A DNA stretch of 64,000 nt from Granulicella sp. L46 (GTDB lineage Bacteria > Acidobacteriota > Terriglobia > Terriglobales > Acidobacteriaceae), in assembly GCF_009765785.1 (NCBI RefSeq), contig NZ_LMUT01000012.1:1460654-1524653 (forward strand). Direction: 5' to 3'. The translations under genes were made by a program, and so were the position numbers. Shown here piece after piece: positions 630 to 20,123 of the stretch; the first letter of the stretch is position 1; each line of letters begins with the position of its first letter. The notes under the pieces were generated by a model, which did no database searches, had not been told where the DNA came from, and saw only the letters and a program-made list of their open reading frames with translations.

Positions 630-663
630 ATTCCTCAGGCTGAGGAAACAGCACTCCAGTGCG

Positions 664-707: not shown

Positions 708-1022
708 ACCGCGGTTACGGTGATTTTGCTCTCATCAGGCAAGTCATGAACTGCTCGCGAGCCGACGAACGACCTTTCTGGGAGTATTTCCCGGACCCTC
801 GCCTTATCCTCTTCTCCTGGTCACCCAATACCCAAGAACAGAACCGTGAAACAGCCACCTTAAACCCCTACAGACGAAGCGGCAGGTGCCGTTGCGCAGC
901 GGTGCGCGTATAAACCGATCCCGCTGGCACTGCGAACACATGTGCAGGAATCCATCTGCACATCGAAGCCTCCTGCCGATCACCTACAACTACACAACCT
1001 GATATCAGAGAGGAACATCATC

Positions 1023-1547: not shown

Positions 1548-1706
1548 CTTCAGGTCGTCCAGAATGCAGCCGGTGCCATCCTCTCTCCGTTTGATTCCGG
1601 GCTTGGGATGCGCGGAATCAAGACACCGTCGGATGGCCCACACCTAACCCTTTCCACAAAATCGAGTGGCTGGTGGCTCATACACAATGACCACCCATAC
1701 CTCGGG

Positions 1707-1743
1707 TGCCCCATTCATGCGGCCTCATCGCATGAGTGGGGCA
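1707..1743. repeat. REP-like hairpin upstream of lptFG
   Basis: Inverted repeat with 15-bp arms (1707-1721 and 1729-1743), one mismatch and a 7-base loop. The core is CCCCATTCATGCG / CGCATGAGTGGGG. It lies in the 306-bp gap 1548-1853 and lacks a T-tract, so it is not a typical terminator. It looks like an interspersed palindrome. Nothing else is evident in the gap. Confidence 0.6.
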
Positions 1744-1853
1744 TCGCACGGCAGCGCGACCCGTCTTCTCTCCCTCAACGACCAACCCCGCCGCCACCTT
1801 CCCTCATCCCTGTTCTTCGATACACTAAAATCACCGCCTCCCGCGGATCAAAC

Positions 1854-4247
1854 GTGCGCATCTTCACTCGCTACATCCTCCGCGAAGTCACCGGCTACGC
1901 CCTGCTCGGCGGCGTGCTCTTCACCTTCATTCTGTTCATGCGCTACCTGCTCCCGCTCATGGAGCTCACTGTCCGCGGCGTCGCTTCCCCTTTCGACATC
2001 GTTCGCCTTATCGGCTATCTCCTTCCCGGGTTCTTCTCCTTCACCATCCCCATGGCCGTGCTCATCGGCATCCTGCTTGGACTCAGCCGCCTCGCAGCCG
2101 ACAGCGAAATCACCGCGATGCGCGCCTCCGGCCTCGGCATCCTCTCCTTCGTCCGCATCGTCAGCGTCTTCGCCATCTCCTTCTGGATCCTCGGCCTCGC
2201 CAACTCCCTCTTCGTCGCCCCCCACGCCGCCCAGGCCCTTCTCAATTATGAAGACGCCTCCAAGACCAGCCAGGCCACCGTCGAGATCCAGCCGCGCGTC
2301 TTCTACGAAGACTTCAAAAACTACGTCCTCTACGCACAGGACGTTATCCCCGGCGCCAACGGCACCGCCATCTGGCGCCACGTCTTCATCGCCGACCTCA
2401 CCAAGCCCGAATCCCCCCACATCATCACCGCGAACGAGGCCACCGTCCTCGCCGGCGGCGCTCAAACCCTCCGCCTCGAACTCGCGGACGCCAGCCGCCA
2501 CGACATCTCCGTCACCGACCCCAACCAGTACGACCTCGTCAGATTCAAGACCACCGAGCTCCCCATGGAGACCGGTCAGCAGGAAGGAGGCTCTCACCTC
2601 ACTCGCCTCAACACCCGTAACGAGGCCATCGCCCTCCCTCAACTCTGGCATCTCGCCCACACTCCCGGCCCAGCCGCTCGCCCCTACCTCATCGAGCTGC
2701 ACAATCGCTTCGCCTTCCCCACCGCCTGCCTCGTCCTCATGCTGGTCGGTGTTCCCCTTGGCCTCTCCTCCAAGCGCGGCGGCAAGGGAGCAGGCTTCGT
2801 CGCAACCCTTGGCCTGGTCTTCGTCTACTACTTCCTGTCCTCTGTAGGCATAGCCTTTGCGCGCCAGGGCAAGCTCCCGCCCGCACTCGGCGTCTGGGGA
2901 GCCAACATCCTCTTCGCTCTCGCCGGCCTTCTCCTCCTGCAGCAGATGTCCCGCGGCGGTGCCGTCCTCGAACTCTTCGCCAACGTCGGCCACGCGTTCA
3001 CCAAACTCTTTGACCGCATGCGCCGCAACACCGCCGCCGGCGATCAGCTCCGCGCCCAGCACATCGGCGATGGCGCCATCATGCAGCGCATCCGTCGCGC
3101 CCTCCGCATCCGCTTTCCCCTCATCCTCGACGAGTACGTCATGGGCAGCTTCCTCCGCAACTTCGCCCTCGTCCTCTTCTCGCTCACCATCCTCTTCATC
3201 ATCTTCACCTTCTTCGAGCTCATCGGAGACATCCTTCGCTATCGCACTCCCCTCGTCGTCGTCGGCGACTATCTGCTCAACCTCGTCCCCTTCATCCTCA
3301 ACACCATCCTTCCCCTCTGCTCGCTCGTCGCCGTCCTCATCACCTTCGGCGCGCTCAATCGCAACAGCGAGCTCACCGCCATGAAGGCCACCGGCATCAG
3401 CCTCTACCGCATCGTCGCTCCCATGCTCGTAGTCGCCACCCTGCTCTCCGGCCTGCTCTTCATCTTCGACGAGACCTACCTCCCCGCAGCCAACCGCCGC
3501 CAGGAAGCCCTCCTCTCCGAAATCAAAGGCAAGCCCGCCCAGACCTTCCTCCGCCCCGATCGAAAATGGATGTCCGGTCAAACGAGTAGCTCCGGCTCCG
3601 GCCCAACCACCGCCACCAGCCAACCAACCCGCATCTTCTACTACCAGTTCTTCGATCCCGACCGGAACGTCTTCGCCAATCTCACCGTCTTCGAGTTCCA
3701 GCCTGGCACCTTCAATCTCACCCGCCGCATCTTCGCCCAGAGCGCGCGCTGGGACGACAATCTCAACGGATGGATCTTCGAAGACGGCTGGCAGCGTACC
3801 TTCCAGGGCGAATCCGTCGCCAGCTACCAGCCCTTCTCCATCTCCGCCTTCCCCGAGATCCACGAACAACCTTCTTACTTCAAGAAAGAAGATCGCCAGT
3901 CCGAACAGATGTCCTACACCGAGCTGGCCACCTACATCAACGACTTGAAGCAAAGTGGTTTTGACACCATGCGTCTCCGCGTCCAGCTAAATCGCAAGCT
4001 CGCGTACCCGCTCATGACGCTGGTCCTCGCCATCCTCGCCATCCCCTTCTCGCTCTTCGCCGGCAAGCGAGGCGGCATCGCCGGCGTCGGCACCGCCATC
4101 GGCGTAGCCATCTCTTATTGGGTCATCGCAGGCATCTTCGAAAACCTAGGCGACGTAAACTCCCTCCCCGCTATCCTCGCGGCCTGGTCCCCCGACCTAC
4201 TCTTCGCCATAGCCGGCACCTATCTCCTCCTCCGCACCCCCACCTAG
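1854..4247 (+). CDS. Fused LptF-LptG lipopolysaccharide export permease
   Basis: Inner-membrane permease of the Lpt bridge, which with the LptB ATPase extracts LPS and hands it to the periplasmic LptC/A proteins. Two YjgP/YjgQ modules lie in one chain: residues ~1-390 and, after a short linker, ~410-797. Each has an N-terminal membrane segment pair, a periplasmic beta-jellyroll-like middle and a C-terminal pair. Both modules carry the family motif in which a Ser-Glu-Leu/Ile-Thr-Ala-Met-(R/K)-A stretch follows the second helix (SEITAMRASG, SELTAMKATG). GTG 1854 starts right at the conserved RIFTRYILRE segment. The ~82 residues open upstream are low-complexity and not family-like. LptF and LptG are separate genes in Escherichia coli; the fusion fixes their 1:1 ratio. 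Confidence 0.9.
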   Translation: MRIFTRYILREVTGYALLGGVLFTFILFMRYLLPLMELTVRGVASPFDIVRLIGYLLPGFFSFTIPMAVLIGILLGLSRLAADSEITAMRASGLGILSFVRIVSVFAISFWILGLANSLFVAPHAAQALLNYEDASKTSQATVEIQPRVFYEDFKNYVLYAQDVIPGANGTAIWRHVFIADLTKPESPHIITANEATVLAGGAQTLRLELADASRHDISVTDPNQYDLVRFKTTELPMETGQQEGGSHLTRLNTRNEAIALPQLWHLAHTPGPAARPYLIELHNRFAFPTACLVLMLVGVPLGLSSKRGGKGAGFVATLGLVFVYYFLSSVGIAFARQGKLPPALGVWGANILFALAGLLLLQQMSRGGAVLELFANVGHAFTKLFDRMRRNTAAGDQLRAQHIGDGAIMQRIRRALRIRFPLILDEYVMGSFLRNFALVLFSLTILFIIFTFFELIGDILRYRTPLVVVGDYLLNLVPFILNTILPLCSLVAVLITFGALNRNSELTAMKATGISLYRIVAPMLVVATLLSGLLFIFDETYLPAANRRQEALLSEIKGKPAQTFLRPDRKWMSGQTSSSGSGPTTATSQPTRIFYYQFFDPDRNVFANLTVFEFQPGTFNLTRRIFAQSARWDDNLNGWIFEDGWQRTFQGESVASYQPFSISAFPEIHEQPSYFKKEDRQSEQMSYTELATYINDLKQSGFDTMRLRVQLNRKLAYPLMTLVLAILAIPFSLFAGKRGGIAGVGTAIGVAISYWVIAGIFENLGDVNSLPAILAAWSPDLLFAIAGTYLLLRTPT

Positions 4248-4301
4248 CTCATCTACCCTGTCATCTCGACCGGAGCGAAGTGCAGTGGAAAGACCCCTGT
4301 A

Positions 4302-4403
4302 TTTGCCTTTGCTCTTGCCTTTGCTCTTGCCTTTGCCTTTGCTCTTGCCTTTGCTCTTGCCTTTGCCTTTGCCCTTGTCTTTGTCTTTGTCTTTGCTTTT
4401 GCC
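4302..4403. repeat. Hexanucleotide tandem array (TTTGCC/TTTGCT/CTTGCC)
   Basis: Seventeen consecutive 6-bp units of the form (T/C)TTG(C/T)(C/T), in the gap between lptFG and the FKBP gene. The array is flanked on the left by a degenerate element beginning TCATCTCGACCGGAGCGAAG (4261) and on the right by GTCATTCCGAGCGCAGCGAG (4415). Such arrays slip easily, so copy number may vary between strains. Open frames through it are low-complexity and I do not call them genes. Confidence 0.8.
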
Positions 4404-4444
4404 TTTCTGTCTGTCATTCCGAGCGCAGCGAGGAACCTGCTTCT

Positions 4445-4461
4445 CGCTCGCGCAGCGAGCG
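4445..4461. repeat. GC-rich hairpin before FKBP gene
   Basis: CGCTCG-cgcag-CGAGCG inverted repeat at the right edge of the hexamer array region. It has no T-tract, so a terminator role for lptFG is only possible. Confidence 0.4.
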
Positions 4462-4529
4462 CCCGTTCTAGCCTTACTCAAACCTAAAAACTAGAACCCC
4501 TCCCCCAACCGAGCTAAACTAAACTCGAC

Positions 4530-5306
4530 ATGAAAACACAGACCCTCCCCCTTGCATCCCTCATCCTTGCTTTAGCTGCGCTTCCTCTGGGAGCCCAAAC
4601 CACCGCAACGCCGACCGCCCATCACACCACCACAGCCGTACACCACGCCGCCACCCCCGGCTGCGTCAAGCTACCTGAGCTCTCCCCCAAGATCCCAGCC
4701 CTTCCCGCCAGCGCGCCCTGCGCCAAGATTCTCTACACCCTCACCCACACCCCCGACACCCATCTCGATTACGTATCCCCGCTCGTCTCCCCTGAGGTCC
4801 GCGCCGACCTCGCCGGCCAGAAGACCACCTACTCCCTCACCTACGTCGACACCGTCCTCGGCACAGGCGCGCTAGCCCAGCCCGGCAAGTTCTATACCGT
4901 CCACTACACCGGCTACCTCCCCGACGGCAGCAAGTTTGACTCCTCCGTCGACCGCGGCGAACCCATCAGCTTCCCCTACGGCAAGCACCGCGTCATCCAG
5001 GGGTGGGACACCGCCTTCGAAGGCATGCGCATTGGCGGCAAGCGCCGCCTCTTCATCCCCTACCAGCTCGCCTACGGCGAAGCCGGTCGCCCTCCCGTCA
5101 TCCCCGCCAAGGCTGAACTCATCTTCGACGTAGAGTTCATCGCCCAGGGCGACGAAATGCCCAAGCCCAAGACCCCGCCCGCACCCATGGCCCGCCCCCT
5201 CAACCAGAAGCCAATAACACCTCCTCCCGCACCGCCCGCGGCCAAGCCAGCAACCCCACCGCCGACGTCCAGCACAACGCCCCCAGCCACCCAGCCCCAG
5301 AAGTAA
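4530..5306 (+). CDS. Secreted FKBP-type peptidyl-prolyl isomerase
   Basis: Folding helper that isomerises X-Pro bonds, predicted periplasmic. Signal peptide at residues 1-22 (ends LPLGAQ). A helical N-terminal region follows to about residue 105. The FKBP domain, residues ~110-206, has the recognisable VHYTGYLPDGSKFDSS, VIQGWDTAFEGM, GGKRRLFIP and LAYGEAG stretches, with the active-site Tyr, Asp, Trp and Phe-equivalent positions in place. The C-terminal ~50 residues are a Pro/Ala/Thr-rich tail, probably disordered. The N-terminal dimerisation domain of FkpA/Mip proteins is not clear. The gene stands alone. Confidence 0.92.
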   Translation: MKTQTLPLASLILALAALPLGAQTTATPTAHHTTTAVHHAATPGCVKLPELSPKIPALPASAPCAKILYTLTHTPDTHLDYVSPLVSPEVRADLAGQKTTYSLTYVDTVLGTGALAQPGKFYTVHYTGYLPDGSKFDSSVDRGEPISFPYGKHRVIQGWDTAFEGMRIGGKRRLFIPYQLAYGEAGRPPVIPAKAELIFDVEFIAQGDEMPKPKTPPAPMARPLNQKPITPPPAPPAAKPATPPPTSSTTPPATQPQK

Positions 5307-5358
5307 CTCAATCCCAACGGCGGCCGCAAGCATCCAACACGCGGCCGCCTCTTCGTTT

Positions 5359-5396
5359 CTCTACTCTCTACCCTCTACGCTCTACACTCTGCCCTT
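5359..5396 (+). promoter_or_regulatory. Five CTCTACN heptads directly before a start codon
   Basis: Perfect 7-bp phasing: units start at 5359, 5366, 5373, 5380 and 5387 (ctctact, ctctacc, ctctacg, ctctaca, ctctgcc), and three bases later comes ATG 5397. It occupies the place of a Shine-Dalgarno site, and no purine-rich site is present. The same arrangement precedes rdgB at 11484-11520. Confidence 0.7.
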
Positions 5397-7385
5397 ATGC
5401 TCTCCCGCCTCAGACCGCTCTTTCCCTACCTCCGCCGCTACTGGAGGAGCTTCGCCCTCGGCGGTCTAGCCCTCATCGTCTACAACGCCGCCAAGGCCAT
5501 GATCCCCTTGCTCATCGGGGGCGCCACCCGTGACATCCAGAACGGCCTATCCGCCGCCAAGGTCGAGCACCACGCCATCCGGATCCTCGCCGTTGCCGTC
5601 GTTGCTGCCATCACCCTCTATCTCACCCGCCAGATCATCATCGGCGCCTCTCGCGAAATCGAGTTCGACCTCCGCAACGACCTCTTCTCTCACCTGGAAT
5701 CTCAGCCACCCGAGTTCTTCCAGCGCCATCGCACGGGCGACATCATGGCGCACTCCACCAATGATTTAAACGCAGTCCGCCAACTCCTCGGCCCGGCCAT
5801 CATGTACTCGGCCAACACCATCGTCTTCACCGCCTTCGCGCTTCCGTTCATGCTGCGCATCAGTCCGCGCCTGACGATGTTCGCGTTCCTGCCGCTGCCC
5901 TTCGCTTCCGTCTTAGTGCAGTACTTCGGCGCTCGCATCCACATCCGTTTCGAGCGCATCCAGGCCATGTTCTCCGACATCTCCGCACAGGCCGAAGAGA
6001 ACTTCTCCGCCGCCCGCCTCATCCGCGCCTTCACCCAGGAAGAAGCCCAGATCGCCGCCTTCGAAACCTCCAACCAGGAGTACATCCGCCGCAGCCTGCT
6101 CCTCGCCCGCCTCATGGCCATGCTCTGGCCCACGCTCGAGTTCGTCCTCGGCGTCTCGCTCGTCGTCACCCTCCTGGTCGGCGGCCACGAAGTCGTAGCC
6201 CACCGCATCACCGTCGACCAGTTCTTCACCTACAACATCTTCATGGTCCAGCTCACCTGGCCGATGATCGCCATCGGCTGGGTCGTCAACCTGGTCCAGC
6301 GCGGCACGGCCTCAGTCACCCGCATCCACAACCTGATGACCGAAATGCCCACCATCACCGACGCCCAAGCCGACCCAGCCCTCGTCGCAGCCACCAACAA
6401 TTTGTCATCCTTCGCCCCCAACAATTTGTCATCCGCCCCCAACAATCTATCGCCCCTCGGCCCCGATAAGTTGTCATCCTTCGCCGAGGGCGGAGGATCT
6501 GCTTCTCCAACTGGCGACACTCATCGCCTCGGCGGCAACCAGGTACCCCAAGGCTTCAGCCTTGGGTTTCATACGCCCGTAGAAAGGGGAGGGGCTTTAG
6601 CCCCGGCCCTCATCACCGGCCACATCACCTTCGACCACCTAAGCTTCACTTACCCCACCGGCCCGGAAGTCCTCCACGACATCACCCTCGACATCCCCGC
6701 CGGCTCCTCCCTCGCCATCGTAGGCCCCACCGGCAGCGGCAAGTCCACGCTAGTCTCCCTCATCCCCCGCCTCTACGACGCACCGCACAACAGCGTCCTC
6801 CTCGACGATCGCCCTCTCCGCGACTACCCCCTCCAAACCCTGCGCGCGTCCATCGGCTTCGTCCCCCAGGAGACCTTCCTCTTCTCCACCACCATCGCCA
6901 ACAACATCGCCTTTGGAGTCCCCGCAGCCACCACCGACGCAGCCAAACAAATCCTCAACGAGCAGATCGAAGCCGCCGCCCGCACCGCCCACATCGCCGA
7001 CGAAATCCTCGAGTTCCCCAGCGGTTTCCGCACCATCGTCGGCGAGCGCGGCGTCACACTCTCCGGCGGCCAGAAGCAGCGCACGGCCATCGCCCGCGCC
7101 ATCCTCCGCAATCCCCCCATCCTCATCCTCGACGACGCCCTCGCCAGCGTAGACACCTACACCGAAGAACAAATCCTCGCCGGCCTCCACGAAGCCATGC
7201 AAGGCCGCACCACCATCCTCATCGCCCACCGCGTCTCCACCGCCCGCAACGCGGACCGCATCGCCGTCCTCATCGACGGCCGCATCGCCGAGCTAGGCAC
7301 CCACGACGAACTCATCGCCCGCAACGGCTACTACACCGACCTCTTCGAAAAACAATCCCTAGAAGAAGAAATCCTCACCGCCTAG
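5397..7385 (+). CDS. ABC exporter, MsbA/MdlB-like half transporter
   Basis: Inner-membrane ABC exporter with fused membrane and ATPase domains. The transmembrane domain covers residues ~1-320. The nucleotide-binding domain covers ~410-655, with Walker A GPTGSGKST from residue 443, the signature LSGGQKQR from 555, Walker B ILILDDALASVD, and the H-loop (IAHRVS). The substrate is unknown; lipid or drug export is possible for this family. The linker, residues ~331-404, is abnormal: first a fourfold NNLSS-type repeat, then a translated REP element (residues ~382-403). Without it the length would be about 590, the usual family size. The start is preceded by a heptad repeat instead of a normal ribosome site. 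Confidence 0.92.
   Translation: MLSRLRPLFPYLRRYWRSFALGGLALIVYNAAKAMIPLLIGGATRDIQNGLSAAKVEHHAIRILAVAVVAAITLYLTRQIIIGASREIEFDLRNDLFSHLESQPPEFFQRHRTGDIMAHSTNDLNAVRQLLGPAIMYSANTIVFTAFALPFMLRISPRLTMFAFLPLPFASVLVQYFGARIHIRFERIQAMFSDISAQAEENFSAARLIRAFTQEEAQIAAFETSNQEYIRRSLLLARLMAMLWPTLEFVLGVSLVVTLLVGGHEVVAHRITVDQFFTYNIFMVQLTWPMIAIGWVVNLVQRGTASVTRIHNLMTEMPTITDAQADPALVAATNNLSSFAPNNLSSAPNNLSPLGPDKLSSFAEGGGSASPTGDTHRLGGNQVPQGFSLGFHTPVERGGALAPALITGHITFDHLSFTYPTGPEVLHDITLDIPAGSSLAIVGPTGSGKSTLVSLIPRLYDAPHNSVLLDDRPLRDYPLQTLRASIGFVPQETFLFSTTIANNIAFGVPAATTDAAKQILNEQIEAAARTAHIADEILEFPSGFRTIVGERGVTLSGGQKQRTAIARAILRNPPILILDDALASVDTYTEEQILAGLHEAMQGRTTILIAHRVSTARNADRIAVLIDGRIAELGTHDELIARNGYYTDLFEKQSLEEEILTA
6393..6486. 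repeat. Tandem AACAATTTGTCATCC repeats inside ABC gene
   Basis: Four degenerate copies of a ~20-26 bp unit, in frame within the ABC exporter linker. They encode NNLSSFAP, NNLSSAP, NNLSPLGP and DKLSSFA. All are non-conserved additions between membrane and ATPase domains. Confidence 0.75.
6541..6606 (+). repeat. REP/BIME copy 1, translated inside ABC gene
   Basis: Contains both palindromes of the local element: CCCCAAGGCTtcAGCCTTGGG, then after about 30 bases GGGGCTTTAGCCCC. It begins AGGTACCCC like the copies at 9968 and 10538. It lies in the same orientation and reads in frame as linker residues. Confidence 0.85.
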
Positions 7386-7419
7386 CTCTCGTCTCTCCAC
7401 GTCTTTGCTTCTGAGATAG

Positions 7420-7475
7420 GCCCGGGCTTTAGCCCGGGCAATACGCGCCTCCCCCGAATGGGGCTTTAGCCCCTG
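7420..7475. repeat. REP/BIME copy 2 (divergent)
   Basis: Two hairpins: GCCCGGGCTTTAGCCCGGGC (7420-7439) and GGGGCTTTAGCCCC (7460-7473). It lies in the short gap between the ABC gene and yjbQ, which converge. The first palindrome differs from the other copies but keeps the central GGCTTTAGCC core. It may also act as transcription stop for both genes. Confidence 0.75.
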
Positions 7476-7496
7476 GGACTCTCCTGCGCGCGGGCC

Positions 7497-7919
7497 TCAG
7501 CTCTTTCCCACGCCCATCACCTTCACAATCACCCGCTTCGCCCGCTGCCCATCGAACTCCGCATAAAAAACCCTCTGCCAAGTCCCCAAATCCAGCCGCC
7601 CATGCGTCACCGGCAGCGTCGTCTCATGATGCAGCAGCAGCGCTTTCAAATGCGCATCGCCATTATCCTCACCCGTCCGATGATGCTTATACCCCGGCCA
7701 CCGCGGCGCCAGCTTCTCCAGCCACACGCCAATATCCTCAATCAACCCATCTTCGTTATCGTTGACATAGATCGCAGCCGTAATATGCATGGGCGAAACA
7801 AAGCAAAGCCCGTCATCGACGCCACTGCGCCGCACAATCGCCTCCACCTCCGGCGTAATGTGCACCATCTCATACTGCTCATCAGTTTTAAACGTCAGGT
7901 ATTCGGTATGAACCTTCAT
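7497..7919 (-). CDS. yjbQ: YjbQ/UPF0047 family protein
   Basis: 140 residues, the usual length for the YjbQ family, a small trimeric fold found in all domains of life. Family features are visible: an N-terminal strand pair ([17 protein letters not shown]), [19 protein letters not shown], the His-rich segment [29 protein letters not shown] and the C-terminal [20 protein letters not shown]. The E. coli member shows weak thiamine-phosphate synthase activity; the true role is unsettled. The gene converges on the ABC exporter across a REP copy. The next gene on this strand ends 19 bp upstream, so they may be co-transcribed. Confidence 0.9.
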
Positions 7920-7938
7920 GCGCCGATCTTAAACCAAC

Positions 7939-8547
7939 CTACCGTTGCGGCGCAGGCGCACCCACTGGTGGCGGAGGCGGCGGTGCAGGCTCTCCCGGAC
8001 CCTCCTGCGGCGGCATCGGCGACGGCTCACCACCCTTGCCTCTCACCGGCACATCCTTCCCATGCTCAGGATCGTAGTCATGCCGCTGCATCCACAGCTT
8101 GTACTCCGCCACCGGCTCCGAGCGCATACCGTCCCTGCCCTCCGCATACGCAAAGTCCTTCATGTCCGCATTGAAGTCACAGGTAAAGAACTTCCCTGCT
8201 TGCCCAAACACCGGCAACAGCACCACCAGCTGCTTGCCTTGTTTCTTCCACCGAGCCGGGTACGTCTCATACCCAAACGACGCCCGCACCTTGTAGTCAC
8301 ATTGGTAGTTGAAGTCCAGCCCACGCGCTTCGCCATTCTCATACAAATTGGCGCGACCATCTCCCTGCGTCTCATCCAGCGAACGCGTGCGATGGTAATA
8401 AAACGACGTCTGGCTGCGCCCAAAGATATGCAGCCGCAGCGGGTAATCCGCCGGATTTTTGCTATCCGCCAAAGCTCTCGGCGACATCGCCGCCATCATC
8501 ATCGCCGCCACCATCACCAACCCAGCCACACCCTTCGAAACGCGCAT
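7939..8547 (-). CDS. Secreted protein of unknown function, Pro-rich tail
   Basis: 202 residues. Ribosome site AAGGAG lies 8 bases before ATG. Signal peptide at residues 1-27 (ends SPRALA). The mature part carries two Cys (YQCDYKVR, FTCDFNADM) that could pair, and many aromatic residues. No known family is recognised. The last ~35 residues are a Pro/Gly-rich tail with a run of seven prolines, probably disordered and periplasmic or surface exposed. It lies just upstream of yjbQ on the same strand and probably shares its transcript. Confidence 0.7.
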   Translation of the reverse strand: MRVSKGVAGLVMVAAMMMAAMSPRALADSKNPADYPLRLHIFGRSQTSFYYHRTRSLDETQGDGRANLYENGEARGLDFNYQCDYKVRASFGYETYPARWKKQGKQLVVLLPVFGQAGKFFTCDFNADMKDFAYAEGRDGMRSEPVAEYKLWMQRHDYDPEHGKDVPVRGKGGEPSPMPPQEGPGEPAPPPPPPVGAPAPQR

Positions 8548-8768
8548 CTGGAAGACTCCTTAGGTTCTCAATGTAAGACGAAAGTCACCCCGTTTGACGT
8601 TTCCTCCCCGCATCCAGTCTCGCCCTCCGAAAATAAATTTCGCCCCACCCCAACAACCCAATCCGCCAACCCCATCCAACCCTTTAGCTCGATGCTGAAC
8701 ATTGAAAGCTTAGATCTAGAAGCTAAGCGCTGGAATTAGCCGCTGGAAGAATCGAAGGGGCACGGCTG

Positions 8769-8842
8769 GTAGCCCAAGGCTTCCGCCTTGGGTCTCCGTG
8801 CCATAAACCTCAATCCCGGCAAAGGGCTTTAGCCCCTGAGGT
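8769..8842 (+). repeat. REP/BIME copy 3
   Basis: GGTAGCCCAAGGCttcc-GCCTTGGG palindrome, a spacer, then GGGCTTTAGCCCC and GAGGTAAGC. Same orientation as the copies at 6541, 9968 and 10538. It ends 11 bp before the next start codon. The rest of the 306-bp gap 8548-8853 shows only a weak inverted repeat near 8707-8730 and no gene. Confidence 0.8.
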
Positions 8843-8853
8843 AAGCTTTCGTC

Positions 8854-9945
8854 ATGCGCGTCGCCGCCCTCCTCCTCGCTCTCGCCGCAACCGCGCCCCT
8901 CACCCTCCAAGCCCAGTGGACCATCCAGACCCCCACCACCGCAGACCTCCGCGGCATCGACAACGTAGGCAAGGGCATCGCCTGGGCCTCGGGCACCAAC
9001 GGCACCGTCCTCCGCACCGAAGACGCCGGCTACCTCTGGCAGCGCTGCACCATCCCACCCAACGCCGAGCACCTCGACTTCCGCGGCATCCAGGCCTTCG
9101 ACGCCAACACCGCCATCGTCATGTCCAGCGGCCCCGGCGACCAGTCCCGCCTCTACAAAACCACCAACGGCTGCCAAACCTGGAAGCTCCTCTTCACCAA
9201 CCCCGACAAAACCGGCTTCTGGGACGCGATCAAATTTCGAGATCAAACTCACGGATATTTGCTGGGCGATCCAGTCGCGGGGAAATTTGAAATTCTCGAA
9301 ACGAGCAACGGTGGTTCTTACTGGCAGACGTATTGGGGCGGAGTCGAGGCATCTCCCAACGAAGGCGCATTCGCTGCCAGCAATTCGTCATTGGCCTTAG
9401 GAGTAACGGAAGGTCATTCAGGCATAGGACTTATTTTTGGCACCGGCGCACCTCAACACGCCAGAGCGATTTGGATGGAAATTACGGGTGGGGGCGACGT
9501 GTTCTCATCGAATTGGAACGGGGCTGTTCTGCCAGTCGCTGCAGGTACATCGTCTGCTGGTGTTTTCGCGCTTGCGTTCGGCGATTCAACTCACCTCGTC
9601 GCCGTAGGCGGCGACTACCTCAAACCCAATGACTCCACTCGCATTACAGCCTTCACAACCAACGGCGGCAAAACTTGGCAAGCCGCCACAACCTCGCCCC
9701 ACGGCTTCCGCAGCGCAGTAGCCTACGACTCAAAGGCCAAAATCTGGATCACGGTAGGCCCCAACGGGACCGACATCTCCACCGACGACGGCCGCAACTG
9801 GCGCCCCCTCCACCCCACCAACAACGACGCCCCCGACGCCGACCAGCACTGGAACGCCCTCTCCCTCCCCTACGCCGTAGGCCCCCACGGCCGCATCGGC
9901 ATCCTCAACCCCTCCGCCCTCAAACCCATCTCAACCAAACCCTAG
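8854..9945 (+). CDS. Secreted YCF48/BNR-type beta-propeller protein
   Basis: 363 residues with a signal peptide at 1-22 (MRVAALLLALAATAPLTLQAQ). Repeated propeller blades of the photosystem II stability factor YCF48 / BNR type are visible: DLRGIDNVGKGIAWASGTNGTVLRTEDAG, SRLYKTTNGCQTW, ILETSNGGSYW, ITAFTTNGGKTWQ and DISTDDGRNWRPL, each with the Asp-box-like S/T-x-(D/N)-G-G-x-x-W pattern. In non-photosynthetic bacteria such proteins are extracellular or periplasmic and their ligands are unknown. Oddly, the middle (about 9228-9600) uses mixed, AT-ending codons, while both flanks use almost only C-ending codons. That suggests a recombined patch. Confidence 0.8.
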   Translation: MRVAALLLALAATAPLTLQAQWTIQTPTTADLRGIDNVGKGIAWASGTNGTVLRTEDAGYLWQRCTIPPNAEHLDFRGIQAFDANTAIVMSSGPGDQSRLYKTTNGCQTWKLLFTNPDKTGFWDAIKFRDQTHGYLLGDPVAGKFEILETSNGGSYWQTYWGGVEASPNEGAFAASNSSLALGVTEGHSGIGLIFGTGAPQHARAIWMEITGGGDVFSSNWNGAVLPVAAGTSSAGVFALAFGDSTHLVAVGGDYLKPNDSTRITAFTTNGGKTWQAATTSPHGFRSAVAYDSKAKIWITVGPNGTDISTDDGRNWRPLHPTNNDAPDADQHWNALSLPYAVGPHGRIGILNPSALKPISTKP

Positions 9946-9967
9946 CTCTCAAATTCCGACGACAATC

Positions 9968-10034
9968 GGGTACCCCGAGGCTTTAGCCTCCGGTCTCATA
10001 GCCCCAAACCGAAGATGGGCTTTAGCCCTGAGGT
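9968..10034 (+). repeat. REP/BIME copy 4, abutting the RAYT gene
   Basis: GGTACCCCGAGGCTTTAGCCTCCGG, a spacer, GGGCTTTAGCCC, then TGAGGTATGC. The terminal GGTATGC runs into the first ATG (10035) of the transposase, so element and gene touch. Confidence 0.85.
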
Positions 10035-10495
10035 ATGCTCTTCCACATGGTGCCCCAGCAGAGCAACACCTACGCCATCTCCATCTCGACATTCCTCCAA
10101 CATCGTCATTTCCAACACGAAGCCAACGCAGAACTATTCCTCAAAACTCTGCTCCGTTATCGTCACCAAGGAAAGTTCGAACTTCACGGCTTCGCGATCA
10201 TGCCCGATCATGTCCATCTCCTCATAACGCCAGCGCTAGATCAATCCCTCCCAAAATGTATTCAGCTCATAAAGGGCGGATATTCCTTCGCCGCGCGAAG
10301 TCTCACCCAAAGGAAATCTGGCACACCAGCTATCACGAACATCGCATTCGCGATCTGGAAGACTACGACAACCAACTCCGCTACATCGCCAACAACCCAT
10401 CAGCCGCAAAACTCGTCTCTGACTATCGGTACGTCCACACTCATCCCCAACATGCGTCATCCGTTGACGCATGCCCACAGCATCTGCTGAGATGA
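10035..10495 (+). pseudogene. REP-associated tyrosine transposase (RAYT), frameshifted
   Basis: Y1-type HUH transposase of the RAYT/TnpA-REP family, which handles single-stranded REP hairpins. The first frame (from ATG 10035 or 10047) carries GKFELHGFAIMPDHVHLLITP with the HxH metal motif, then IKGGYSFAARSL. The conserved C-terminal half continues in another frame (EIWHTSYHEHRIRDLEDYDN, then QLRYIANNP with the probable catalytic Tyr) and stops at 10495. One extra A in the AAA run 10309-10311 would join the halves, so a single-base deletion is the simplest reading. No classical slippery heptamer fits. It is flanked by direct-oriented REP copies at 9968 and 10538. It is either a recent pseudogene or a base-call error. 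Confidence 0.85.
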
Positions 10496-10537
10496 GCCAA
10501 CCGCGCGTCAGACTCCTATCTAATTGCGGCGACACGC

Positions 10538-10608
10538 AGGTACCCCAAGGCTTTAGCCTTGGGTCTCATAACCGCAAAAACAAAAGGGGCTTTAGCCCTG
10601 GGGTATGC
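10538..10608 (+). repeat. REP/BIME copy 5, downstream of the RAYT
   Basis: CAGGTACCCCAAGGCTTTAGCCTTGGG, TCTCATA, a spacer, GGGGCTTTAGCCCTGGGGTATGC. This is the cleanest copy. The outer GGTACCCC and GGGGTAT ends are also inverted to each other. It starts 42 bp after the transposase stop. Confidence 0.88.
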
Positions 10609-10626
10609 CGTCTTCGATGCTCGGCA

Positions 10627-11370
10627 TCACCGGCTAGCAATCTCGGTCCGTCTCCGCGGCACACTCCGCACCCGCAGCCCACAAGCCGCCGGCACATTCG
10701 TCATCTGCTTCGCAAACACCCGAAACCCTGCAGTCCCCGGCTGCAGCGTAGCCCAATAACTCGTGCGCGACACCAGCGGCTTCCCCTGCGTGACAATCTG
10801 GTTCTCCATAATCTTCACGCCGCACCCAAGGTTGTTCTCCGGCGACAAAATCGTTCGCCCCGGATCCTTCACCGGCAGCGTACGATCCTTCTCCCAGTCG
10901 AAGTCGCATCCATACCTCTGCGCATCTTCATACTTCACCTGCATCAAGCCTTCCTGCCTCGCCGGCCTCTTAGTCACCGGATCAACAACGTTCACCGGAG
11001 CCTGCAAATGATGCACATCGGCCGTAGGATTCAGCCCAGCCTCCGCCGCCGCGATCGCCTGAAACATATAAGCCCAGAACTCCCGCTTCTGCGCCTCCGT
11101 CTCCTGGGTAAATCGCGGACAGTACACCCTTACCGCGCGGGCCGTCTTGTCGTCTAACATATCCGCCGGCAGAGCTTTCTCCACCACCGCATCCCACTGC
11201 GGATCCCACGTCGTTCCGCCAAGCTCCGCCTTCTTCACATCCAGCGGCGTCGGCGGAGCCGGCACCACCGCCGGTTGCGCGGGCTTCTGCACCACCTGCG
11301 TCGCAGGCCGCTCACATCCCGCAAACGCAACCATCAAGCACACGCAAACCACAGACGATCGAAGAGCCAT
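10627..11370 (-). CDS. Lipoprotein with lytic-transglycosylase-like domain
   Basis: 247 residues. N-terminal lipoprotein signal with lipobox AFAGC (Cys 19), so predicted to be anchored in a membrane facing the periplasm. A Pro/Ala/Val linker follows. The C-terminal two thirds show the SLT pattern: a helix with Glu in AIAAAEAGLNP (candidate catalytic acid), GLMQV (as the G-L-M-Q motif), and NNLGCGVKIMENQI (as the N-x-x-x-G motif). Lytic transglycosylases cleave peptidoglycan glycan chains to 1,6-anhydro ends. The match is by motif order only, so the family is likely but not certain. It is convergent with the RAYT locus. Confidence 0.65.
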   Translation of the reverse strand: MALRSSVVCVCLMVAFAGCERPATQVVQKPAQPAVVPAPPTPLDVKKAELGGTTWDPQWDAVVEKALPADMLDDKTARAVRVYCPRFTQETEAQKREFWAYMFQAIAAAEAGLNPTADVHHLQAPVNVVDPVTKRPARQEGLMQVKYEDAQRYGCDFDWEKDRTLPVKDPGRTILSPENNLGCGVKIMENQIVTQGKPLVSRTSYWATLQPGTAGFRVFAKQMTNVPAACGLRVRSVPRRRTEIASR

Positions 11371-11483
11371 CTACCGCACCATCCGTTCACCGAGCGCGCA
11401 AAGCTCTGCAAGCTCTCCAATTCTCTGATGCCGCAACCGCCGCTGAGGGAATGAGCTCGTTAGATAGAACGCCTCTCGCTCTT

Positions 11484-11520
11484 CTCTACGCTCTACACTC
11501 TATCCTCTACACTCTGTCTC
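11484..11520 (+). promoter_or_regulatory. Five CTCTACN heptads directly before rdgB
   Basis: Units start at 11484, 11491, 11498, 11505 and 11512 (ctctacg, ctctaca, ctctatc, ctctaca, ctctgtc), followed by TC and ATG 11521. As before the ABC gene, the last unit is CTCTG(C/T)C and there is no purine-rich ribosome site. Confidence 0.7.
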
Positions 11521-12162
11521 ATGACCCTCTACGCCGCCACCTCCAACCCCGGCAAGCTGGCCGAGTTTGCCACCAGCGCCAGCACGTCCGGTATTGAGGT
11601 CCTCGCCCTCCCCAACCTCCATCAAATCCCCGAGCCCATAGAAGACGCCACCACCTTCCAGGGCAACGCCGACCTCAAAGCCATCGCCTACTCCCTAGCT
11701 GCCCCAAACCTCCTCGTCTTCGCCGACGACTCCGGCCTCGAAGTCCCAGCCCTCAACAGCCAGCCCGGCGTCCGCTCCGCCCGCTTCGCCGACGACTACA
11801 CAACCGAGCATCCAGAGGAGCCCGTTATCGACACCCCTGTATCACTCGGCTCTAAAGACGACCGCAACAATGCCCTCCTCCTCCAGCTCATGCAGAACGA
11901 ACCCTCCCGCACCGCCCGCTTCGTCTGCAACCTCGCCCTCGCACGCAACGGCCAGGTCCTCTTCCGCGCCGAAGGCTCAGTCGAAGGCCAACTCCTCCAC
12001 ACCCCCAGGGGCGCCGACGGCTTCGGCTACGATCCCCTCTTCCTTGTCCCCTCCCTCAACCTCACCTTTGCCGAGATCCCCCGCGAACAAAAGTGGCAGC
12101 TCTCCCACCGTGGCAACGCCTTCCGCGCACTCCTCGCTCAACTCGCTTCCAGCCACCCCTAG
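11521..12162 (+). CDS. rdgB: RdgB/HAM1 non-canonical purine NTP pyrophosphatase
   Basis: House-cleaning enzyme that hydrolyses ITP, dITP and XTP to the monophosphates, keeping deaminated purines out of nucleic acids; cytoplasmic. 213 residues, near the usual 200. Family motifs: SNPGKLAEF at the N-terminus (nucleotide binding), FADDSGLEVPAL with the metal-binding Asp pair, GVRSARFA, and GADGFGYDPLFLVP followed by SHRGNAFRAL. A short insertion (about residues 100-115, EHPEEPVIDTPVSLGSKDD) sits where other members have a loop. The start codon is preceded by the heptad array. The gene is monocistronic. Confidence 0.95.
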   Translation: MTLYAATSNPGKLAEFATSASTSGIEVLALPNLHQIPEPIEDATTFQGNADLKAIAYSLAAPNLLVFADDSGLEVPALNSQPGVRSARFADDYTTEHPEEPVIDTPVSLGSKDDRNNALLLQLMQNEPSRTARFVCNLALARNGQVLFRAEGSVEGQLLHTPRGADGFGYDPLFLVPSLNLTFAEIPREQKWQLSHRGNAFRALLAQLASSHP

Positions 12163-12202
12163 CTATATACCGCACAGAACGAACGGTATTCGCACGAGCA
12201 AC

Positions 12203-12231
12203 TTGACTGCGATATTTTGTCGTAGCAATAA
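12203..12231 (+). promoter_or_regulatory. Candidate sdh promoter
   Basis: TTGACT at 12203-12208, a 17-bp spacer, CAATAA at 12226-12231 (or AATAAT with 18). A sigma70-like pair, about 120 bp ahead of sdhC, in the only AT-rich part of the gap. Confidence 0.4.
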
Positions 12232-12261
12232 TCAGTTCCGCCGGTTCCTTCGCGACGCGAC

Positions 12262-12345
12262 ACCCGAAACTAGGCTAAAGACGTCGCTGAGTAACCCGAA
12301 ACAGGGCTAAGTATGTCGAATTCACCCCCGAAACCCAAGGCTGGG
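12262..12345 (+). promoter_or_regulatory. Three direct repeats with exact 32-bp period upstream of sdhC
   Basis: Copies begin at 12262, 12294 and 12326: ACCCGAAACtAGGCTAAAG, ACCCGAAACaGGGCTAAG, CCCCGAAACccaAGGCTGGG. Between copies a GTCG is kept. The array lies between the candidate promoter and the start codon and reaches the ribosome-site region. The same motif at the same 32-bp spacing occurs on the minus strand at 42921-42969. Confidence 0.75.
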
Positions 12346-12353
12346 ACAAATTG

Positions 12354-13043: not shown

Positions 13044-14957
13044 ATGAAACTTGACGCAAGAATTCCCTCTGGACCGATTCAAGAAGCCTGGGCGAAAGCC
13101 TGCTTCGACATGAAACTCGTAAATCCGGCAAATAAACGCAAGCATTCTGTGATCGTCGTAGGCTCCGGCCTGGCCGGAGGAGCTGCAGCAGCCTCTCTCG
13201 GCGAGCTAGGCTACAACGTCAAATGCTTTTGTTTTCAAGACTCTCCAAGGCGCGCACATTCCATTGCCGCCCAAGGTGGAATCAACGCAGCCAAGAACTA
13301 TCCCAATGATGGCGAAAGTGTCTTCCGCCTCTTCTATGACACAGTCAAGGGTGGCGATTTCCGTGCGCGGGAAGCCAACGTCTATCGCTTGGCCCAGATC
13401 AGCGGAAAGATCATCGATCAATGTGTTGCTCAAGGCGTGCCATTCGCACGCGAGTATGGTGGTTCGCTGGCAAATCGCTCCTTCGGTGGCGCCCAGGTCT
13501 CGCGCACTTTCTACGCTCGCGGCCAAACCGGTCAGCAGCTTCTTTTGGGTGCCTATCAAGCTCTTGAGCGCCAGGTACATGCGGGCTCCGTCACCATGAT
13601 CCCGCGCACCGAGATGCTGGACCTCATAGTCGTCGATGGGCAGGCGCGAGGCATCGTCACACGCAGCCTTATCACCGGTGAGTTCAACGTACACATCGCA
13701 GACGCCGTCATCCTCGCCAGCGGGGGTTATAGCAACGTCTACTATCTCTCCACGAACGCGAAGGGCTCGAACGTCACGGCCAGTTGGCGCGCCTACAAAC
13801 GCGGTGCACTCTTCGCCAATCCTTGCTTTACGCAGATCCATCCCACCTGCATTCCGGTCTCGGGTGACTATCAGTCGAAACTCACGCTGATGAGCGAATC
13901 CCTGCGCAACGACGGTCGCATCTGGGTTCCGAAGAAGAAGGGCGACCCGCGTCCTCCCAATGAAATTCCAGAAGAAGAACGCGACTACTATCTCGAGCGT
14001 CGATATCCCAGCTTCGGCAATCTCGTTCCACGTGACGTAGCTTCGCGAAACGCCAAGGCTATGTGTGATGAAGGATACGGCGTCGGCAAGTCGGGCCTCG
14101 GCGTCTATCTCGACTTTTCCGAGTCGATCGCGCGTCTGGGGGAGAAGACAGTCCGCGAACGCTACGGAAATCTCTTCGACATGTATCAGCGAATCACCGA
14201 CGAGAATCCCTACAAGACCCCCATGCGGATCTACCCGGCCATCCACTACACCATGGGCGGCCTGTGGGTGGACTATCAGCTGCAGAGCAACATCCCTGGC
14301 CTGTTCGTGCTCGGTGAGGCCAACTTCTCCGATCACGGAGCCAATCGACTTGGCGCCAGCGCGTTAATGCAGGGGCTCTCGGATGGCTACTTCATCATTC
14401 CATACACCGTTGGAAACTATCTGGCCAGCAACAAGTTCGCAAAGGTTGATGAGTCGAATCCCGCGGTGCAGGAAGCTGTCACGGCGGTCAAGACAAAGAT
14501 CGACAAACTGCTCTCGATCAAAGGCAATCGTACGGTCGATTCCTTCCATCGTGAACTCGGAAAGATTGTCTGGGACTATTGCGGCATGGCTCGTACCGCG
14601 GAGGGCTTGGAAGTCGCGATTCAAAAAATCCGCGCACTGCGCGACGAATACTGGCAAAACGTTACCGTGCCTGGCAGTGGCGACGATCTGAATGAAAGCC
14701 TGGAGAAGGCTGGCCGAGTTGCCGACTTCTTCGAACTAGCCGAATTGATGTGTATCGACGCCCTCGATCGAAACGAATCCTGCGGCGGTCACTTCCGCGA
14801 GGAGTATCAGACACCGGATGGCGAAGCTCAACGTGATGATGAGCGCTATTCCTACGTCGCCGCATGGGGTTATAACGGCCCAGACGCTCCTCCCGAACTT
14901 ATCAAGGAGCCCCTCACGTTCGAATACGTTCACCCCAGCCAGAGGAGTTACAAGTAA
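13044..14957 (+). CDS. sdhA: Succinate dehydrogenase/fumarate reductase flavoprotein
   Basis: Catalytic subunit of complex II, oxidising succinate to fumarate with covalent FAD on the cytoplasmic face. 637 residues. FAD-binding [19 protein letters not shown] near residue 33, the flavin-linking His segment [15 protein letters not shown], the capping-domain region, substrate-site [10 protein letters not shown] and [21 protein letters not shown], and the C-terminal helical domain with [10 protein letters not shown]. The ~30-residue N-terminal extension and overall form resemble Bacillus/Chlorobi type B enzymes. Start abuts the sdhC stop and stop abuts the sdhB ATG, so the three are translationally coupled. 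Confidence 0.97.
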
Positions 14958-15746
14958 ATGAAACTGACACTGAAGATCTGGCGGCAAAAGAACCGTAATG
15001 AAAAGGGCGTGTTCGTGAAGTACCCCATGAACGACGTCGATCCCGAGATGTCCATGCTGGAATGCCTGGATGTATTGAACGAGTCGCTGATCCTGCGCGG
15101 CGAAGTTCCCGTGGCCTTCGAGCACGACTGTCGGGAAGGCATCTGCGGCTCCTGCGGTTTCGTGATCAATGGCGTCGCGCATGGCCCGGAACGTGGAACC
15201 ACCGCATGTCAGTTGTCGATGCGTCATTTCAAAGATGGCGACGAACTGACACTTGAACCATGGCGTGCGAAGGCGTTTCCGCTGGTCAAGGACCTCGTTG
15301 TGAATCGGCGCGCCCTGGACCACATCATCGAGGCCGGTGGATACGTTTCAGTCTCAACAGGACAGGCCCCCGAAGGAAACACGCTCCCTGTGGGGAAAGA
15401 AATTGCCGACCAGTCAATGGATGCTGCCGCCTGCATCGGGTGTGGAGCGTGCGTTGCGGCCTGCCCCAACGCATCAGCTGCGCTCTTCACAGGAGCCAAG
15501 ATTACACACCTCGGGGTTCTTCCCCAGGGCGAACCCGAGCGCGAGCGCCGAGCTTTGAGCATGGTCGCGCAGATGAATGCCGAAGCCTTCGGAAATTGCA
15601 CCAGCATTGGAGAATGCACAGGCGTGTGCCCAAAGGAAATTCCATTGGAAGTCATCGCCAACATGAATCGGGACTATGTTTGCGCGAGCTTCAAACGGCG
15701 TGAAGACCTTCCTACACCAGTCGCACCCGTGCTTCAGCACACTTAG
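14958..15746 (+). CDS. sdhB: Succinate dehydrogenase iron-sulfur subunit
   Basis: Electron wire of complex II. 262 residues. The N-terminal 2Fe-2S ferredoxin domain has CREGICGSC and a later Cys (TTACQL-type position). The C-terminal domain has [15 protein letters not shown] for the 4Fe-4S cluster and [16 protein letters not shown] completing the 3Fe-4S and 4Fe-4S sites. Last gene of sdhCAB, followed after 24 bp by a strong bidirectional terminator. Confidence 0.97.
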
Positions 15747-15770
15747 GCGACAGCAATCCTTAAACAAAAA

Positions 15771-15796
15771 AGCCTCGCGCCAAGCGAGGCTCTTTT
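15771..15796. terminator. Bidirectional rho-independent terminator
   Basis: Stem AGCCTCGC (15771-15778) / GCGAGGCT (15784-15791), 5-base loop. CTTTT follows on the plus strand; on the minus strand a run of six T follows. It serves sdhCAB and the converging small gene at 15844. Confidence 0.9.
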
Positions 15797-15843
15797 GTTA
15801 TGAACTGGAATGTAATCCCCAATTCACGAACTTGTAAAGTGGA

Positions 15844-16041
15844 TTACTTTGTGAAAATCGAAGTTCCTGGATTCTTGGCCTCATCGTCGTGAATCCGGTT
15901 CTGAGCCCGTTTGGCGCTTTCCATTGCTTCATGATCGAGGCGCTGCTCAGGAGTTTGGTTTTCTGCTTCTCCCCCAGTGCTCTCAATTGCCTCGTGAGAA
16001 GGACGATCTGCTGTTTTAGTCGAATCAAGTCCCGCTGCCAT
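15844..16041 (-). CDS. Small hydrophilic protein, 65 residues, unknown
   Basis: Very polar, rich in Glu, Ala, Asp and His, no membrane segment, predicted helical: DRPSHEAIES near residue 12 and LDHEAMESAKRAQNRIHDDE near residue 36 look like two related helices. ATG is preceded by AGAGGTGA at 5-base spacing, and the gene ends just ahead of a strong terminator; both support a real gene. A longer open frame on the same strand (15798-16265) lacks these signs. I do not recognise a named family; the NRIHDDE...GTSIFTK ending may be conserved among acidobacteria, but that is from memory only. Confidence 0.65.
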   Translation of the reverse strand: MAAGLDSTKTADRPSHEAIESTGGEAENQTPEQRLDHEAMESAKRAQNRIHDDEAKNPGTSIFTK

Positions 16042-16263
16042 ATGTCACCTCTGGTCATGTTTGAGGCACTTTGAAGCAGCAGAGTTGTATGCAACCCTTG
16101 CTTGATCGGAAGTTCGAACAACATGGAAATTTCATGCATCCCACATTGGGGATAAGTAGTTTGCGTGCAGCGCTTTGAGGTCGCACATGAGCGTTGGACG
16201 AATGAGTAAAAACGCGTTGTTACAATCAAGGCTCCGTAAATCAAAGGGATAAGGCTTCTTGTC

Positions 16264-17424
16264 ATGACGAATGATCCAGCGAATATTCACGCAGATGCTC
16301 TCGTAATCGACGGGCATGCAGACACCCCGCAAAGATTTTTGGATGAGGCCTGGAACTTCAGCGATCCGTTGGGAGCGGGCATGCTCAACCTCGAATCGGC
16401 GCGAGTTGGCAATCTCGCCGCGGAGTTCTTCGCTATATGGGTTGAGCCGAAAGAGTGGCGAGGCCGCTTTGCGCACCGAACATTGCAATTGCTGGACGGC
16501 GTCTACCAACAATTGCGAATACATCCTGGCTTGATGCGGTTAGGCCTGACCTCGGAAGACGTCGTTCAGGCCCACCGCGATAAGGTGTTCTGCGTATTGC
16601 TGGGCATCGAGGGTGGCCATTCTATCGAAGCGGATCTGGGAATGTTGAGAATGTACTACCAGCTAGGCGTGAGATATATGACGCTTACATGGTCCAACTC
16701 GAATGAATGGGCTGATAGTTCCGGAGATATTGACGACCCAACTGTCGTGCACCACGGGGGTCTTACAGAATTCGGACGCGACGTTGTGCGTGAGATGAAC
16801 AGATTGGGAATGATGATCGATGTGTCTCACGCTGCGGACACTACGTTCTGGCAAGTGCTGAAGACGACACATGCACCCGTGATTGCGTCGCATTCGAGCG
16901 CTCGTGCGCTCACGGATTCGCCACGAAACCTCACCGACGAGCAGTTACGAGCAATCGCGACGAACGACGGTATCGTGATGGTGAACTTCTATCCAGCGTT
17001 CATCGATGCTGCCTGGCGCGACGGTTGGTCCGCGACGAAAGCTCACCGTGATTCACTCTACGAATCAATGACAAAGGCGTACAGAGACCGCGGAGAGCCG
17101 GTTCCCTACTATGCGTCTATGTCCGCCGACCGCCAATACTATGCGGAATTCCTCCAGGACAAATTGCCGCTGGCGCCCCTGAGTGCGCTGATAGACCACA
17201 TCGACCATGTAGCGCAGGTTGCGGGAATCGATCACGTAGGGTTGGGTTCGGACTTTGATGGATTCCCGATCCTGCCCGAGGGCCTGAATAGCGCAGCCAA
17301 TCTGCCGAAGATAACAGCGGCGCTCGCAGAACGTGGCTATCGTCCCGAGCAGCTGCACAAACTTCTCGGAGGAAATTTGCTGCGTGTTTTTGCGGCTGTC
17401 CAGGCCGAGGCCACCATTGCGTAA
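16264..17424 (+). CDS. Peptidase M19 (renal-type membrane dipeptidase family)
   Basis: Zinc dipeptidase of the amidohydrolase fold, hydrolysing dipeptides, in some members also D-amino-acid-containing ones. 386 residues without signal peptide, so cytoplasmic as far as can be seen. Metal-site and family motifs: VIDGHADTPQRF (HxD), the bridging Glu in LLGIEGGHSIEAD, YMTLTWSNSNEWADS, the His in MIDVSHAADTTFW, APVIASHSSARALTDSPRNLTDEQ and the C-terminal GIDHVGLGSDFDGF. All expected ligands are present. It stands alone between the small gene and the GH130 gene. Confidence 0.93.
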   Translation: MTNDPANIHADALVIDGHADTPQRFLDEAWNFSDPLGAGMLNLESARVGNLAAEFFAIWVEPKEWRGRFAHRTLQLLDGVYQQLRIHPGLMRLGLTSEDVVQAHRDKVFCVLLGIEGGHSIEADLGMLRMYYQLGVRYMTLTWSNSNEWADSSGDIDDPTVVHHGGLTEFGRDVVREMNRLGMMIDVSHAADTTFWQVLKTTHAPVIASHSSARALTDSPRNLTDEQLRAIATNDGIVMVNFYPAFIDAAWRDGWSATKAHRDSLYESMTKAYRDRGEPVPYYASMSADRQYYAEFLQDKLPLAPLSALIDHIDHVAQVAGIDHVGLGSDFDGFPILPEGLNSAANLPKITAALAERGYRPEQLHKLLGGNLLRVFAAVQAEATIA

Positions 17425-17631
17425 CGGTTACTTGTGCAATCACTCACTTTGCGTTGGGTATTAACACCTTTGGACCACTGCTTGGCCATCAAACCACCCC
17501 GCCTAATGAGATACTGCGAGAGAAAGATTGATTGCAAGTCTCAATTTGAGCTCACGCTGAGCTTCCTGTGGGCTCAGATGCACCCAATCAATCTTTGCTC
17601 GAGGACATCAATCGAAAACCCCAGGATCGTT

Positions 17632-18834: not shown

Positions 18835-18901
18835 GTGGTAACCGGCATACGGGACTGGGTGGCTTGGACGTTGGCGCTGCATGGAGTAGCCTTAAGTCTG
18901 A

Positions 18902-19726: not shown

Positions 19727-19925
19727 AGCATTTGGCGTTCAACTGCCGGCGCAACGATGAACGTTTCCATGCACCGTTTCTGTTTGACATCGATATCGGA
19801 TTTGGTATCCGGTTTTATCTGTAAGATAATAAGCAGGATAGGAACGATCTACTGAGAATTGAATCCAAAGATCATCAACTTGCTTCTAAGAGCACTAGCT
19901 CGTAAGATTTGGCCTGATTTTTGGG

Positions 19926-20096: not shown

Positions 20097-20123
20097 ATGT
20101 CGCAATGAGAAAAAGGAGATTCA

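Follow-up and report, generated by a model that had tools for sequence, protein, structure and literature searches.

Two-hairpin elements of one orientation in strongly skewed DNA of Granulicella sp. L46, with a broken RAYT gene among them

A population of small elements that lies one way under extreme strand asymmetry is the noteworthy finding in the genome of Granulicella sp. L46 (G000; 5.48 Mb in 39 contigs) and in the complete chromosome of a related species (G006). The element unit is about 70 nt long and comprises two hairpins with the core GGCTTYAGCC. In exact elements this core reads on the locally C-rich strand in 59 of 59 cases in G000 and in 56 of 56 in G006, the skew being taken from 5 kb flanks with the element excluded and 7 of the 63 G006 elements falling outside the examined stretches. 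The window, that is, the whole stretch of 64,000 nucleotides analysed here, is regarded with moderate confidence as part of a genome-wide population of these polar elements served by RAYT (HUH, Y1) transposases, together with one old, broken RAYT; on the same reading, the single orientation relative to extreme local GC skew most likely records the direction of replication.

Profile searches of the whole window located five elements, all at 6.5-10.6 kb (Table 1), in agreement with the initial annotation, which had seen no copies in the rest of the stretch. The strict pattern GGCTTYAGCCN{16,46}GGCTTYAGCC gave 4 matches, against 0 in 100 shuffles. Folded as single-stranded DNA, the five elements tend toward two hairpins, with z-scores of -0.9 to -3.1, and the 9968 copy does not fold clearly better than shuffled sequence, being equalled by 34 of 200 shuffles. 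The bracketing of the RAYT by two direct two-hairpin copies, proposed in the same annotation, was borne out: they share 81% identity over 93 nt at a spacing of 570. The first does run into the start codon, since its 3' end, GGTATGC, includes the ATG. Three additional copies within 4 kb had also been counted; those at 6541 and 8768 belong to family A, whereas the third, tagged GATAGG, is a member of another family. The 6541 element lies inside an ABC-transporter reading frame, a detail on which the initial account differed. The G006 orthologue of this transporter is shorter (586 aa), and the alignment is interrupted across the linker that holds the element in the window. In-frame elements here (5397-7385) and in other stretches (L100, L072, L077, L159 and others) add peptides such as QVPQGFSLG and ALKGTGFSPS. 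Positions 4291-4422 of the window contain tandem TTGCCTTTGCTC-like repeats, pyrimidine-rich on the C-rich strand, and similar words like GCCTTTGCC stand immediately 5' of some family B elements.

Table 1. Coordinates of features in the window
Feature	Position	Strand	Remarks
Strongly skewed block	1..12350		GC skew -0.31; all five elements
ABC transporter ORF	5397..7385	+	PF00664 at 20-290, PF00005 at 426-582
Family A element	6541..6606	+	In frame in ABC-transporter ORF, in the interval between membrane and ATPase domains
Family B element (GAGATAGG tag)	7413..7479	+	Cognate RAYT not found in own genome
Family A element, TTCC loop in first hairpin	8768..8846	+	Adjoins YCF48-like gene
Family A two-hairpin element	9968..10038	+	5' of RAYT; element end overlaps ATG at 10035
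RAYT N-terminal part, HUH motif PDHVHLL	10035..10310	+	Y1_Tnp and REP_Tyr_transpos matches
RAYT C-terminal part, second frame, motif YIANNP	10256..10495	+	Profile positions 93-140 of 146
Family A element, direct orientation	10538..10608	+	3' of RAYT
Weak-skew block	13044..60000		GC skew -0.05; no profile hit

The ORF at 10035-10490 matches Y1_Tnp with 34 bits (cut-off 23). On the REP_Tyr_transpos model, which has 146 positions, one frame's piece covers 7-88 with 51.2 bits and the other's covers 93-140 with 39.9 bits. These parts are complementary, and each alone falls below the cut-off of 80. The intact G006 orthologue reaches 89.6 bits, which places it among the RAYTs. TnpArep (4er8) is the best sequence match among solved structures. 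The motifs PDHVHLL and YIANNP lie in separate frames in the window and in a single frame in G006; judged by these frames, the window copy is therefore a RAYT pseudogene as assembled. Near 10.31 kb the assembly, a 39-contig draft, does contain the frame break, although a sequencing error is possible. The G004 RAYT orthologue (L004:1480-1809) is independently frame-broken, near but not at the break in the window. The initial annotation was right about the REP-like elements, the RAYT and the broken frame, which has an intact relative in G006, but its statement that the transposase may just have died is not datable. It had also made its case depend on RAYT relatives in related genomes, and the G006 orthologue is such a relative.

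The neighbourhood of the RAYT is old, and the gene itself is decaying there. It lies between YjbQ-like and Ham1-like genes in both species, with identity to G006 of 81% vs 59-89% for its neighbours, and the gene pairs of the window are collinear with G006 stretches from 633 to 694 kb, except for one pair that matches elsewhere. The YCF48-like gene precedes the RAYT in the window and follows it in G006 (L075:9378-12395). The 8768 element occupies the interval between the YjbQ-like and YCF48-like genes, the very one that contains the RAYT in G006, so that a short local move of the RAYT or its neighbour is possible.

The 59 exact two-core elements of the own genome are distributed over ten contigs, against 0 matches in the reversed control. 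The initial annotation had described a local REPtron and had named such a spread of copies, regardless of RAYT genes, as evidence against it. Nor did the intact RAYT paralogues that it sought in this genome emerge, as the only Y1_Tnp match is the broken window gene. Families are defined by end tags: A, the own family of the window RAYT, has mostly GGTAC and occasionally GGTAG, and B and C, the latter mainly in G006, have different ones. REPs are characterised by a GTAG tetranucleotide 5' of the palindrome. Family B flanks RAYTs in other species (L005, L009). Its 30 profile hits in the own genome, where no corresponding RAYT turned up, make up an orphan REP family. As in REP and REPIN populations, the palindromic copies are many, dispersed and mostly intergenic, and as in a REPtron, family A stands on both sides of the RAYT, here in direct orientation on both. 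Of the profile hits, 12 of 77 in G000 and 24 of 108 in G006 fall well within ORFs with a called length of roughly 200 codons upwards, counts based on crude ORF calls, some of which may be spurious.

The orientation rule also covers diverged copies. Profile hits have the same face on the C-rich strand in 77 of 77 cases in G000 and 106 of 108 in G006, and the two exceptions are inverted copies flanking the intact RAYT of that genome. At the second G006 RAYT (L083), the inverted flank is too diverged for the profile threshold and is outside the 108. The elements are non-independent and fall into 18 (G000) and 14 (G006) polarity runs. Sixty G006 stretches were placed in gaps irrespective of elements, most other stretches having been chosen for holding them, and 28 of 28 elements in these gap stretches follow the rule; L070 overlaps the window and is excluded from all counts. 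Among single 10-mer cores, as distinct from two-core elements, ten wrong-way cases occur in the G006 stretches, and the reversed control gives 43 chance hits genome-wide. Two of the ten adjoin RAYTs (L075, L083), and only the one in L075 is a profile hit. Exact elements share the strand of their nearest gene in 26 of 59 cases (G000) and 36 of 56 (G006); in the own genome the rule is independent of gene direction. Sorted by replichore, the + strand carries 29 of the 30 exact elements of the left G006 arm, and the - strand carries 18 of the 33 of the right arm. Local skew predicts orientation better than replichore does, as expected if inversions carry both. In the literature searched, mostly outside the subscription journals, no earlier account of oriented REPs within skew blocks was recognised for Acidobacteria.

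The strand asymmetry itself is strong. Third-position GC skew (+ strand) in the first 12.2 kb of the window is -0.56 to -0.75 in 9 of 12 called genes, on either gene strand, and -0.33 in the RAYT ORF, and the skew is about zero by 16 kb. In strongly skewed G000 DNA, the fourfold sites of genes on the C-rich strand hold C 0.72, G 0.10, A 0.10 and T 0.08. Counted on the same strand, C is 0.69 in genes of the opposite strand, and neutral DNA has C 0.35 and G 0.34. Gene direction was rejected as the cause of the skew, fourfold C being 0.72 vs 0.69 for genes on either strand. Of 130 orthologous gene pairs of the own genome and G006, 93 show strong skew in both members, with opposite sign in the coding sense for 32 of the 93; skew thus follows chromosomal place and not the gene.

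The sign of the skew switches in blocks along the own contigs and the complete G006 chromosome, 51% of which was examined. With dnaA (2,139,838) taken as origin and the opposite point (0.176 Mb) as terminus, 2-kb windows below -0.1, between, and above +0.1 number 354, 117 and 66 in the left arm of G006 (n=537) and 105, 119 and 236 in the right (n=460). The arms that flank dnaA have opposite majority signs. As the map has 10 negative-to-positive switches, the position of dnaA at one of them carries little weight alone, and the right arm is heavily mixed. The simplest reading of the blocks is replication combined with many inversions. This reading does not account for large near-neutral blocks: uvrA has a skew of -0.06 here vs -0.57 in collinear G006 DNA, values that also disfavour codon selection behind the weak-skew blocks. 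Loss of mutS1 or mutY was rejected as a cause, as mutS1 is above cut-off in nine of nine genomes and mutY-like matches, none over the model cut-off, are present in nine of nine, skewed or not. Plasmid records compared with the window gave no match. In the part of one survey consulted, Acidobacteria have a very low mean bias of 0.009 (PMC4613354); blocks of opposite sign cancel, and whole-chromosome scores could hide this kind of asymmetry.

Other species differ in how firmly their elements are oriented. A bacterial genome collection yielded 184 RAYT loci, and in the best 80 of these, hairpins were concordant with skew in 16 of 17 cases at |skew| >= 0.12 and in 16 of 31 at weaker skew, with hairpins <500 bp from the RAYT excluded and the two hairpins of an element counted separately. 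Neighbour pairs within 30 kb are 22 same-strand and 1 opposite in G016, and 5 and 27 in G022. The weakly skewed G001, with dnaA at 467, has 6+/8- and 6+/9- by replichore and no orientation rule; a universal lagging-strand rule is unsupported in this genome. Inverted doublets of exact elements (<=600 bp) number 0 in G000, G006 and G016, where two inverted REPs hence do not form the unit, and 18 in G022, all among its opposite neighbour pairs, and 5 in G001. At least two of the 18 in G022 bracket RAYT matches, and one inverted pair was detected by profile upstream of the intact G006 RAYT. The doublets of G022 and G001 are often about 100 bp apart and REPIN-like.

Of 83 RAYT loci (window, L075 and L083 included), 78 passed a length filter and 58 of them have an upstream + element, and the downstream copy, direct in the window, is inverted in 39 of these 58. 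Weakly skewed loci have an inverted downstream copy in 33 of 41 cases, and loci on the C-rich strand in 4 of 15 (at a lax limit of E 1 and ignoring the kinship of loci; Fisher p 0.0003). The remaining loci on the C-rich strand comprise 8 without a downstream copy and 3 with a direct one, the window among them, and RAYT loci on the G-rich strand retain the inverted copy in 2 of 2 cases. These counts, uncorrected for kinship, suggest that wrong-way copies are lost in skewed DNA.

Taken together, the data suggest that the elements record the direction of DNA replication. Hairpins that the replication fork exposes as single strands would be the substrate of the RAYT, and the elements would thus enter, or survive, in one orientation only. 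Later inversions would move element and skew together and give rise to alternating blocks. Within each block, the skew might mark the direction of the fork. Inverted copies are depleted next to RAYTs where the DNA is skewed, which suggests that loss plays a part. The substrate of HUH Y1 transposases is single-stranded DNA. IS200/IS605 elements are reported to target the lagging-strand template, according to the part of the account consulted (PMC6006769). The tag-first strand in G006 has the nascent-lagging sense, i.e., that of the leading-strand template. In E. coli TnpAREP, the tag-first strand is the active one; if this also holds here, the polarity would be opposite to that of IS608. The lack of an orientation rule in G001 counts against strict fork targeting, which should act there too, and the near-neutral blocks that are collinear with skewed DNA of the other species, G006, also count against this reading. 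A more tentative proposal, possible though less probable than the reading given at the outset, is a common cause: a group of Acidobacteriaceae might have an unusual mode of replication that exposes or miscopies one strand far more than in ordinary bacteria, drives fourfold C to about 70% and yields one-way elements. As such a mode would produce both strong skew and strand-selective transposition, it would explain the link between skew and orientation, and each element might then permanently mark the direction of the fork, with every skew block recording an inversion.

Several other explanations could account for part of these observations. The orientation might reflect selection instead of transposition, the hairpins serving as polar fork motifs of which only correctly oriented copies are kept. 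KOPS, Chi and primosome assembly sites are motifs of this kind, and the near-perfect orientation of families A, B and C despite a single, broken Y1 match in the own genome is in its favour. We consider it unlikely, since in G001 and G022, both weakly skewed, elements occupy either strand and also form inverted doublets, and some elements lie in frame within genes, as mobile DNA would. The mobile unit of the initial annotation, in which the flanking copies and the RAYT form a local, recently dead REPtron, is improbable. The two direct copies do bracket the gene, and the altered position of the RAYT relative to the YCF48-like gene, with the 8768 element standing where G006 has its RAYT, indicates that a local move may have happened. 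Against this, the elements occur genome-wide, the overall neighbourhood is that of G006, with RAYT identity near that of its neighbours, and the inverted flanks of most kin loci reveal that a direct pair is not the usual arrangement.

Causation could also run from RAYT or element activity to the skew, e.g., if nicks and extended single-strand gaps led to asymmetric mutation. This idea gains from the absence of gap-stretch G006 elements (0 of 28) at |skew| <0.10, vs 27% of background windows, but it too has little probability: G001 and G022 combine RAYT-like matches with many elements, G001 loci are weakly skewed, two loci assigned to G022 have skews of -0.10 and -0.02, and some 20-kb stretches (L101, L133, L149) are skewed yet have no core hit. 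The least credible explanation, and a very improbable one, is a composition artefact in which the orientation is only apparent and due solely to mutation pressure with a strong bias to C. Orientation and skew are indeed tightly coupled, yet each strand of the GGCTTTAGCC core has three G and three C, conserved tags define the orientation, and reversed-pattern controls give 0 two-core matches. Decay would moreover leave some wrong-way copies, and the profiles find only two, both of them RAYT flanks.

The orientation rule holds in 183 of 185 cases in two strongly skewed genomes and is not seen in weakly skewed relatives. Because the same kind of element and the same enzyme family occur in species with and without skew, these species provide a natural experiment on the spread of REPs by RAYTs, a process that to our knowledge is unsettled. 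Asymmetry of this degree could also mislead gene finding, phylogeny and origin prediction in common soil bacteria.

RAYT/TnpAREP REPtrons resemble the present system in the REP_Tyr_transpos family, in 4er8 as the best structure match and in many small hairpin elements. REPINs and BIMEs are described, in the portions of two accounts consulted, as two inverted REPs that are paired (PMC8266576, PMC6006769). In contrast, the dispersed unit of the skewed genomes has two same-direction hairpins with different end tags and is single and one-way. RAYT-like genes with flanking terminal inverted repeats, some of them forming families, have been reported from Acidobacteria as TIRYT/TIRtron, as far as the consulted part of that account goes (PMC3733652). 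They belong to the same phylum, and their flanks are inverted, whereas those of the window are direct. The TIRYT/TIRtron account, as examined in part, has no treatment of chromosome-wide orientation, skew or fork direction (PMC3733652). IS200/IS605 elements (IS608, ISDra2) are alike in Y1 HUH chemistry and, in the consulted part of the source, in a reported lagging-strand bias (PMC6006769). They differ in that the hairpin elements here come without the gene, and the G006 transposase has only 23.5 bits vs the IS200 cut-off of 55. IS200/IS605 elements carry hairpins near both ends, in the same sense. Rickettsia palindromic elements are hairpin repeats that lie in frame inside protein genes; we know of no link between them and RAYTs. 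They share with the present elements the in-frame hairpins and differ from them in phylum and sequence.
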